Assembly (NCBI GenBank): GCA_015272325.1
Contig: JACYLU010000011.1
Location: forward strand, 62,001 to 126,000
Reading direction: 5' to 3'
Length of the DNA: 64,000 bases
Origin: Synechococcales cyanobacterium C42_A2020_086
GTDB taxonomy: Bacteria > Cyanobacteriota > Cyanobacteriia > Elainellales > Elainellaceae
This document shows, piece after piece, positions 45,956 to 48,340 of this stretch (its first letter is position 1; every line of letters begins with the position of its first letter). The notes beneath the pieces are model-generated. The model was not told where the DNA came from. It was given only the letters and a program-made list of their open reading frames with translations, and did not search any database. A program made the translations under genes and the position numbers.

Positions 45956-47026
45956 ATGGCAGGCAGACAATCTCCTCCTCCCCCCAATGGCACCGTCTTG
46001 AGTGTTGATCTCGGCAGAACCTCGACTAAGGCATGCGTCACCCGCGATCCAGATAAAGTAATTCTGATCCCGGCAAACGTTGCCCATCTCACCGTCGAGC
46101 AGGTCAGGCGCGGCGGCTTTGAGTCGCAGCCCACTGATCCACTGCTGGATGTGTGGTTAGAGTTCCAGGGGCGAGGCTTCGCGATTGGGCAGCTCGCTGC
46201 TGATTTTGGAGCCAACCTAGGGGTGGGGCAATCCAAGGTCGAAGATGCACTCGTGAAGGTCCTAGCTTGCGTGGGCTTCTTCAACCTCAAGAATAAAATT
46301 TCGGTGGTGCTGGGGTTGCCGTACTATTCGCAGGAACAGTTTGATCGGGAAAAAGAGCAGCTCATAAGCTTGCTGCGCTCGCCCCATGTGATGAGCTATC
46401 GTGGTGAACTCGTCACGATCGACATCGATCGGGTGTGGGTCATGCCCGAAGGCTATGGCAGCCTGATTTGGTGCGAAGCTCAAGACAAAAAAACCACCAG
46501 CCCCGACTTCCCCAACCTTTCAGTCGCCGTGGTGGATATTGGGCATCAAACAACAGATTTTCTGATGGTGGATCGCTTCCGCTTTGCCCGAGGGGCTTCC
46601 AAGAGCGAACCCTTTGCCATGAGCCAGTTCTACGAACAGGTTGCCGCTCAAATTCAGGGAGCCGACAGCCAATCGTTGTCTCTGATTGCTGCTGTTAATC
46701 GTCCGGAAGGCGAGCGTTTCTTCCGTCCCCGCGGAGCGACCAAGCCAACTAACCTAGACGATATTCTGCCCAGCCTCCGCAAAAGCTTTGCCCGCGAACT
46801 CTCGGATCGTCTGGTTGCCTGGTTGCCTGAGCGCGTGACGGATGTGATTGTTAGCGGTGGTGGCGGCGAATTTTTCTGGAACGAGCTGCGTCCCCTGCTG
46901 CGCGATGCTCAGCTCAAAGGGCATTTGGCTAAACCCTCTCGCAAAGCAAACGCTCTCGGGCAGTATATCTACGGCGAAGCCCAATTGGCAGCTGCCAGTA
47001 AGCTGGTCGCGGCGCAAAGTTCCTAG
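45956..47026 (+). CDS. ParM/StbA-like actin-family protein
   Basis: A 356-residue protein with the actin/Hsp70 nucleotide-binding fold. Phosphate 1 is VLSVDLGRTSTKAC. The connect/phosphate 2 region is SVAVVDIGHQTTDFLMVD, and the adenosine motif is DVIVSGGGGEFFWNEL. The layout matches ParM/StbA proteins that form filaments to segregate plasmid DNA. Here it sits beside chromosomal housekeeping genes. A ribbon-helix-helix-like gene follows 276 bases downstream in the ParR position. The start is the ATG of MAGRQSPPPP. Confidence 0.8.
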   Translation: MAGRQSPPPPNGTVLSVDLGRTSTKACVTRDPDKVILIPANVAHLTVEQVRRGGFESQPTDPLLDVWLEFQGRGFAIGQLAADFGANLGVGQSKVEDALVKVLACVGFFNLKNKISVVLGLPYYSQEQFDREKEQLISLLRSPHVMSYRGELVTIDIDRVWVMPEGYGSLIWCEAQDKKTTSPDFPNLSVAVVDIGHQTTDFLMVDRFRFARGASKSEPFAMSQFYEQVAAQIQGADSQSLSLIAAVNRPEGERFFRPRGATKPTNLDDILPSLRKSFARELSDRLVAWLPERVTDVIVSGGGGEFFWNELRPLLRDAQLKGHLAKPSRKANALGQYIYGEAQLAAASKLVAAQSS

Positions 47027-47302
47027 GCTCAACCCTGCCCCGCTAGCTCATCCGCAGCATCTACCAAGAACGGCCTCATCAAGAGCCAATTGCACAGGGA
47101 ATCCCAATTGATCGACAATGGAGTGACAGGAGTGACAGCGCTTCATTGTCTTCGTCTCTTGCTATCTTGAGTTGTTTCCAACCCATCGGGACGGACAGAC
47201 TCATCTAGATGCTCTACTAAGATGTCCAACCCATTCCCTAAGCGATGGAGTCGTCTGTTTTCTGAATCTCTGATTCTCATATAGGTTTTCATAGAACGCC
47301 TA

Positions 47303-47731
47303 GTGACTTCCGATCGCAGCAAAATCAGCCGAGTTGTTAAGTTTGCCGCCACTGAAGCAGACCAGACATTGCTGCAATCCGTTGAGGCAGCACTTGCCCA
47401 GCGCCGAATAAGCTTCAGCGATTTGTGCAAGCAGGCACTGAGACAGCTATTGCTCGAATCCGAAACGGCTCCAACCACTCTTGCTTTGCTAGCAACGTTG
47501 GAACAGCAGCTCATGACCCTTCAGCTGCAAGTAATGCGGTTGGAGCAGCAATCGCAAGCGTCTCAAGCGTCCTACGCTCCTACCTTGCAGCAGTGGGAAC
47601 AGCAGCTACAGCAGTTAGAGGAGCGAGTAACCCGGTTAGAAAGTTCAGCATCACCTGCTCCCGAAGTGGCTGCAGAACCGGAACCTGACCCGCTGCTTGC
47701 TCGCCTAGCTCCACTGCTAGAGGATTTCTGA
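47303..47731 (+). CDS. Putative ParR-like ribbon-helix-helix / coiled-coil protein
   Basis: A 142-residue protein. Residues about 8-52 (SRVVKFAATEADQTLLQSVE, then RISFSDLCKQALRQLLL) look like a beta-strand followed by two helices, as in ribbon-helix-helix DNA-binding proteins. Residues about 60-113 are a Gln/Leu-rich coiled coil, and the tail is acidic (EPEPDPLLARLAPLLEDF). The order DNA-binding head, coiled coil, acidic tail and its place after a ParM-like gene suggest a filament adaptor. The GTG start at 47303 has no strong ribosome site. Assignment is by structure-like pattern only. Confidence 0.6.
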   Translation: MTSDRSKISRVVKFAATEADQTLLQSVEAALAQRRISFSDLCKQALRQLLLESETAPTTLALLATLEQQLMTLQLQVMRLEQQSQASQASYAPTLQQWEQQLQQLEERVTRLESSASPAPEVAAEPEPDPLLARLAPLLEDF

Positions 47732-47748: not shown

Positions 47749-48258
47749 CTACGGCTGCTTCTGTCCGGTCATGCGAATCACGTAAGGATGGTAGGCATTC
47801 TCCTCGTAGGAGCCGATCCAAATTTGATAGGTTCCCGATAGCCATTGCCCGGCAATTCCTGGATTTTTCCCAGAGTAGTCATCGTTGCACCAGGTCCCGC
47901 CGGGTCCCCGTACGATCAAGGTTGTATCGTCTGTGCTTTGAATCTGCAAACTCAAGTAATTGAAAAATTGCGTCAGCTCGATTGTATGATCGGGCTGCTC
48001 ATCAACAAAGCCATTACAGGGTCCAGTTATCGTTTCTGCTCGCCCAGCAATATCCGTTGCAGTGAGCGGTCCGCCGCTAATGCCTCTAACCGTAGTGGGA
48101 TCGGGGGCAAAGTTGGGAGCCAACGTCACATTCTCAAAAATGGTCACGGGGGAAGGCTGGATATTCTGTGCCTGTGCAGGAACCGAAGCCCCAATGCTGG
48201 CGGCTAGCAGCAGGGCAATTGATTGTTTAGTGCCTGAATTTAAACCGTGAGTTTGCAT
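47749..48258 (-). CDS. Secreted protein of unknown function
   Basis: With the ATG at 48258 the protein has 169 residues and a clear signal peptide (IALLLAASIGASVPAQAQ). The mature part is beta-rich and contains HTIELTQFFNYLSLQIQS, DTTLIVRGPGGTWCNDDYSG and GTYQIWIGSYEENAYHPYVI. It resembles pre-peptidase-like beta-sandwich domains, with one Cys in GPCNGF and one in TWCND that could pair. I do not recognise a named family. The frame is open to 48312, but the extra residues do not improve the signal. Confidence 0.65.
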   Translation of the reverse strand: MQTHGLNSGTKQSIALLLAASIGASVPAQAQNIQPSPVTIFENVTLAPNFAPDPTTVRGISGGPLTATDIAGRAETITGPCNGFVDEQPDHTIELTQFFNYLSLQIQSTDDTTLIVRGPGGTWCNDDYSGKNPGIAGQWLSGTYQIWIGSYEENAYHPYVIRMTGQKQP

Positions 48259-48340
48259 AGGTTCTAAATAGTGCATGAAGTGGAATTGCAATAACTCGTG
48301 GATTAAGGTCAAGCCACGATGGGTTAGACATATGGGTCAG

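Follow-up and report, generated by a model that had tools for sequence, protein, structure and literature searches.

What is a ParM-like actin gene doing when it lies, together with a small adaptor-like gene, among the housekeeping genes of a cyanobacterial chromosome? The question is raised by a stretch of 64,000 nucleotides from Synechococcales cyanobacterium C42_A2020_086 (the window hereafter; contig JACYLU010000011.1, positions 62,001 to 126,000), in which the original prediction had seen a filament gene followed by an adaptor gene and had suggested that the pair may move something other than a plasmid, or control cell shape or the positioning of the chromosome. Two intact frames stand in tandem on the plus strand, at 45956-47026 (ATG start, 356 aa) and 47303-47731 (GTG start, 142 aa). 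They are separated by a 276-bp spacer (47027..47302), and a 674-bp gap lies between the first frame and the start of the divergently oriented ftsH; the frames and both distances agree with those predicted. The pair is very probably this organism's copy of FcmBC, a cell-shape system of the CorM type, with a membrane-filament mechanism. The system has already been described, as FcmBC and, in the PDB, as 'CorM', and the window provides an additional member of it.

The location is chromosomal. The contig that carries the pair is 310,517 bp long, in a genome of 5.9 Mb, and the pair lies beside ftsH (797.6 bits, NCBIfam cut-off 600) and gltX (579.8 bits, cut-off 289.95), which upholds the housekeeping site next to ftsH noted at the outset. 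The neighbours also include a glycogen debranching enzyme of archaeal type (381.8 bits) and a RecB-like nuclease of TM0106 type (558.7 bits), both above their NCBIfam cut-offs, and no Rfam family reached its gathering score within the window. Judging from the housekeeping neighbours and the shared synteny, the pair is not carried by a plasmid. Among named relatives, MAG RM1_2_2 comes nearest in its FcmB (90%, in its best segment), then an Oculatellaceae MAG (88%), followed by Drouetiella, Pegethrix, and Elainella (86-87%). The nearest named relatives of the organism are filamentous genera. Elainella has been assigned to Oculatellaceae, and the window adds to the known systems a member with a short and divergent adaptor from an Elainella/Drouetiella-type lineage.

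The first gene (45956..47026, plus strand) is an orthologue of fcmB (corM), encoding an actin-like ATPase. Its product scored 655 bits against the NCBIfam model NF052678 (cut-off 300), with a match that begins at model position 39, and exceeded the Pfam cut-offs for ALP_N (58.8 bits) and MreB-like_C (34.6 bits). A phmmer comparison gave an E-value of 7.1e-161 with PDB entry 9rmi, entitled 'Cryo-EM structure of the CorM filament in the presence of CorR from cyanobacterium Anabaena sp. PCC 7120'. The AlphaFold2 model (mean pLDDT 81.3; residues 1-10, 41-62, and 82-91 under 50) has a ParM-type actin fold by structure comparison. Its best structural match is 9rmi_A, the CorM of a different species (Z 38.8, rmsd 3.0, 327 aligned residues, 67% identity), followed by Ta0583, Alp7A, several ParMs, and actins at Z 22-28. 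The recognition of a ParM-type actin from the letters was therefore sound. The StbA_N profile matched nothing in the organism's own genome or in any control genome and is uninformative.

Conservation of the nucleotide-binding site was examined in an alignment of 29 FcmB proteins. In DLGRTSTK (46007..46030, plus strand), which we take to be the phosphate-1 loop, D18, L19, G20, R21, T22, and K25 are invariant and T24 is kept in at least 90% of the rows; in DIGHQTTD (46535..46558, plus strand), presumably the phosphate-2 loop, D194, I195, G196, H197, Q198, T199, and D201 are invariant. Identity of the whole protein amounts to 82-86% in ten close relatives. MreB is likewise actin-like and affects rod shape, but FcmB is encoded by a separate gene and its nearest structures are CorM, Ta0583, Alp7A, and the ParMs. 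The mreB of the same genome (495.9 bits) lies on another contig, and the fcmB locus is not among the five matches of the MreB model in this genome (E <= 0.001). Broken copies of fcmB were also observed in other genomes. In-frame stops occur in G408 and G394 of the phylum sample, the former having a single in-frame TAG in a 2.2-Mb genome (L106:2146-3186), and in the MAG loci L036, L070, and L072 the gene is split in two; both the TAG and the split genes may reflect decay or assembly error. In two of these MAGs, the close relatives at L036 and L070, a frame change is involved.

By homology and position, the second gene (47303..47731, plus strand) is assigned to fcmC (CorR-like). Residues 7-142 of its 142-residue product match the NCBIfam model NF052682 with an E-value of 6.3e-24 and 85.1 bits, 5 bits under the cut-off of 90 (80.0 bits in the genome scan). 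Since only six of the 19 FcmC proteins that adjoin FcmB in the window's family pass this cut-off and 13 fall under it, the threshold looks too strict for the window's lineage. The short head of the protein is followed by a long coiled coil and then by an acidic tail with LLEDF at its end. In the AlphaFold2 monomer (mean pLDDT 82.6, pTM 0.36), helices span residues 18-34, 38-115 (continuous), and 130-139, and the coiled coil (47462..47647, plus strand) corresponds to the second of them and is accompanied by weak matches to coiled-coil families in Pfam.

The coiled coil and the acidic tail had thus been correctly read from the sequence; the ribbon-helix-helix (RHH) head proposed along with them is weakly supported. 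The head (47327..47461, plus strand) shows an RHH-like order of an xVxF strand candidate, a helix, FSDLCK, and a second helix. The strand of an RHH fold forms only in the dimer. No strand was seen in the head of the monomer model, in which the order of helices fits RHH; the model would be compatible with such a head and is no proof of one. No Foldseek match of the model reached E <= 0.001; an RHH antitoxin stood second in rank (E 2.9). When ten FcmC heads were scanned against Pfam, the window's head had no RHH match, and two divergent orthologues had sub-threshold ones (RHH_1, 17.6 bits in L105, cut-off 20.5; RHH_8, 12.5 bits in L110, cut-off 25.4). Against the PDB, the head profile had no RHH protein among the matches listed, and the profile of the entire FcmC retrieved mostly coiled-coil and helical proteins, with no ParR in the best 60 of 104.

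Two short motifs are shared by nearly all FcmC proteins. FSx[LF]CK was present in 67 of 67 distinct sequences, and an ending of the DPLLxRLxxLLEDF type in 63 by a strict pattern; the remaining four comprise two with a final DDF behind a longer stretch, one with PEDF, and the FcmC of L054, whose frame extends to the contig end. Both the FSxLCK head and the C-terminal DPLLxRLxxLLEDF are kept in the window's protein, the latter within DPLLARLAPLLEDF (47687..47728, plus strand), the proposed FcmB-binding end, which contains helix 130-139 of the model. The conservation of this helix, together with earlier work on ParR and ParM, suggests that the C-terminal helix of FcmC may hold FcmB. Identity to the window's FcmC is only 28-54% in 39 relatives from named loci; these and the window protein make up the structure alignment, from which fused or cut frames (e.g., L031, L033, L035, L054, L056, and L059) and some near-duplicates were left out. 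An N-terminus with a tryptophan and basic residues, a possible membrane contact, was found in at least 40 of the 67 sequences and is absent from the window's. The orthologues of families f17 and f7 are also devoid of the N-terminal tryptophan, and this feature may therefore be a later gain elsewhere; a loss of the membrane peptide in the window's clade had been considered and was dropped for the same reason.

The original prediction had staked its reading on the two genes being kept together in related genomes, and on this point it was not refuted. In the window's family, FcmB exceeded the cut-off in 19 of 36 genomes, and FcmC adjoined it in all 19. In the phylum sample, FcmB exceeded the cut-off in 62 of 386 genomes and again FcmC adjoined it in every one (62/62), 57 of these FcmC proteins being above their own cut-off. 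The two sets comprise 80 distinct genomes (G000 counted once; counts read off tables), in all of which FcmC stands beside FcmB even where the curated FcmC model misses its cut-off. The gene for FcmC lies directly downstream on the same strand, an order kept in the relatives. Weak matches of the FcmC model in genomes with no FcmB above cut-off were seen in two members of the window's family, G015 (20.6 bits, model positions 17-86) and G034 (20.8 and 18.5 bits), and in eight more genomes of the phylum sample (20-24 bits, positions 41-156, mostly coiled coil). According to the mSphere report discussed below, FcmC was missing from a few of the species that have FcmB, for which low identity was suggested as a possible cause (PMC12645912); the 19/19 and 62/62 counts fit this suggestion.

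The neighbourhood is partly shared as well. Upstream of the pair, ftsH was found in 28 of 53 named loci, and gltX downstream in nine of 53, many loci being ended by contig ends. The 28 ftsH loci include all 15 with an FcmB identity of 79-90% to the window's protein; the other 13 are of Okeania, Trichodesmium, and Microcoleaceae type. The gap between the two genes ranges from -4 to 902 bp among 67 loci, measured to the first start codon (values of L018 and L019, where the fcmB frame is broken, were excluded). In several lineages, among them L012/L026 and the Okeania and Trichodesmium-type loci, the spacer is about 200-900 bp long. A further observation concerns a 187-aa protein downstream of fcmC (47749-48312, minus strand), which has a signal-like hydrophobic stretch near its start and no NCBIfam match at E <= 1e-5, and whose relatives are retained at the site in several strains.

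The function proposed for the window is based on work in Nostoc punctiforme, where FcmB and FcmC (Npun_R4472/R4471) were described as needed for rod shape (mSphere 2025, PMC12645912). According to the same report, deletion of fcmB or fcmC yields wider and rounder cells, FcmB forms membrane filaments around the cell in an FcmC-dependent manner, the two proteins interact in two-hybrid tests, and the system originates from plasmid partition actins (PMC12645912). These mutants fit the suggestion that the pair controls cell shape and does not move a plasmid. By orthology to the N. punctiforme pair, the same rod-shape function would be expected in the window's species. FcmB would bind ATP and assemble into filaments like those of actin; FcmC would serve as an oligomeric adaptor with a coiled coil, probably of ParR-type descent, that holds FcmB through its conserved C-terminal helix and anchors the filaments on the cytoplasmic membrane and not on plasmid DNA. 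The assignment of one end of FcmC to the membrane and of the other to FcmB is a proposal made here from comparison. Filaments ringing the cell might then favour a rod shape, by directing the synthesis of the side wall or through constriction. With an actin that once moved DNA now shaping the cell, the system offers a clear example of a cytoskeleton that has changed function.

The window's pair shares with that of N. punctiforme the gene order, the strand, the chromosomal place, and the actin fold, with the FcmB model passed widely and the FcmC model matched along almost all of its length. It differs in a shorter FcmC (142 aa versus a 159-position model) that scores under the cut-off and has no W-plus-basic N-terminus, in a shorter FcmB N-terminus, and in the 276-bp spacer, compared with 5-8 bp in the f6 loci L078-L090. 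The points against the FcmBC identity are the FcmC score and a head with neither a Pfam RHH match nor a significant fold match, to which the missing W-plus-basic stretch and the broken fcmB of two MAGs can be added.

Other explanations have to be weighed against these data. A working ParMRC segregation system, in which FcmC would bind a centromere in the flanks and FcmB would push copies of the chromosome or of an integrated element apart, would account for the ParM-type fold, with Alp7A and ParM structures among the matches, and for the ParM-ParR order of filament gene and then adaptor gene, which had been predicted and was recovered here; we nevertheless regard it as very unlikely. When the three non-coding stretches of the window (the flanks and the spacer) were scanned for repeats, the observed scores were reached by 31, 22, and 40 of 40 dinucleotide shuffles (22 for the spacer), and nothing was found in four relatives either. 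Thus, parC-like repeats are absent, as the prediction of no obvious iterons had it. Applied to eight control loci, the scan gave scores above all 40 shuffles upstream of the StbA-type gene in four and was negative in the other four (eight of the 14 StbA-type loci fetched, typed by sequence and some on megabase contigs), which means that it misses some parC sites. The spacer is not conserved: seven of 12 close relatives have one longer than 40 bp, and for these seven between 4 and 38 of 50 shuffles attained the same similarity to the window's spacer, the value of 4 belonging to the nearest, L036 (91 bp). FcmB is 25-31% identical to eight cyanobacterial StbA-type proteins and approximately 15-20% identical to the ParM and Alp7A structures listed, and FcmC gave no profile match to the proteins downstream of cyanobacterial StbA-type genes (probability 0.9%). 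In the N. punctiforme report, nucleoids of the mutants stained with DAPI showed no obvious change (PMC12645912). Because the pair is co-conserved, the ftsH site is shared, and parC-like repeats are absent, this is not a plasmid partition system. In the control set, the repeat arrays above all shuffles upstream of the StbA-type genes of L093, L101, L103, and L111 are candidate parC sites.

An origin from plasmid partition actins, as given in PMC12645912, could also mean that the pair is a relict of plasmid partition, left behind in the chromosome and now functionless and decaying. The fast evolution of FcmC and the broken fcmB copies in L036, L070, G408, and G394 would suit such a history, but the ATP-site residues are invariant or nearly so, FcmB remains highly similar among close relatives, both window frames are intact, and FcmC adjoins FcmB in every one of the 80 genomes; decay is thus extremely improbable. 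It is also most unlikely that FcmB has another partner or role here as a result of divergence of the window's FcmC, e.g., by loss of membrane attachment. The sub-threshold score and the N-terminus could be taken in that sense, but the conserved head motif and C-terminal ending are retained, and the tryptophan, missing from the f17 and f7 orthologues too, may have been added elsewhere and not lost here. The FcmBC reading, with a membrane-filament mechanism, is therefore preferred.

The distribution of FcmBC and an anchored form of FcmB are the parts of this analysis most worth specialist attention. Two genomes of approximately 3 Mb in family f17, G275 (a single contig of 3,049,282 bp) and G119, carry divergent FcmB and FcmC genes at L105:1582-3214 and L104:1729-3355, respectively. 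Their FcmB proteins are above the cut-off (506.2 and 502.5 bits) and 62% identical to the window's, and the adjacent FcmC proteins are under theirs (46.7 and 44.6 bits). Among eight genomes tested, urea carboxylase exceeded its cut-off only in G275 and G119, and no urease alpha was found in these two or in G070. The signature of urea carboxylase without urease carried by f17 is that of Gloeomargarita; f17 is probably this lineage, and G275 most likely belongs to it. Gloeomargarita is unicellular and forms a sister lineage of plastids. An rpoB tree with no rooted deep outgroup placed a long f17 branch beside f6 (0.959) and therefore gives no support for a deep position of f17; in the FcmB tree f17 is the first to branch off (0.93), although next to an outgroup whose branch is very long. 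We see an even chance that FcmBC predates filamentous growth or is not tied to it, and that at a later stage FcmB, without its FcmC, was also recruited into a modular membrane cassette in genomes of Nostocales type. The published account calls FcmBC "completely absent in unicellular strains" (PMC12645912); if f17 is Gloeomargarita, the view of a confinement to filamentous cyanobacteria needs revision.

A second FcmB above the cut-off was detected in two genomes of the phylum sample, G064 and G279; in each case the actin part is preceded by a hydrophobic helix at the N-terminus and a further stretch of about 130 residues. This anchor is present in 37 of 217 genomes of the Nostocales-type family that holds these fusions. 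Among 21 of the 37 that were examined, the anchor is continued by a complete FcmB-type actin in 14 and by a partial one in two, by a Dynamin_N GTPase in three of three proteins of approximately 900 residues scanned (L176, L179, L180), and by GUN4 in one (L168). At these last loci, listed together with L187:5381-6391, the anchored protein comes after one of approximately 336 residues. The FcmB-type fusions are those at L107:2332-3861, L108:1581-3161, L164-L166, L169-L172, L174, L175, and L181-L184. In 13 fusions checked, DLGRTSTK was exact in seven, DIGHQTxD was present in three, and GGGG[ED] in 12, and no FcmC was found beside the anchored fusions in the stretches fetched. The protein of approximately 336 residues, which by our own reading of its sequence may contain an HNH-like motif, had whole or partial matches in all 27 fusion or anchor loci fetched (23 distinct places). 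Pfam names nothing in it at E <= 0.01. Its relatives occur in 27 of 386 phylum-sample genomes from several families, and none was found in the window's genome at E <= 1e-10. As a guess, the cassette might be an exchangeable, membrane-anchored NTPase module of two genes; the PADLOC LeoBC model gave a weak match (E 6.9e-7) in one of two dynamin members scanned.
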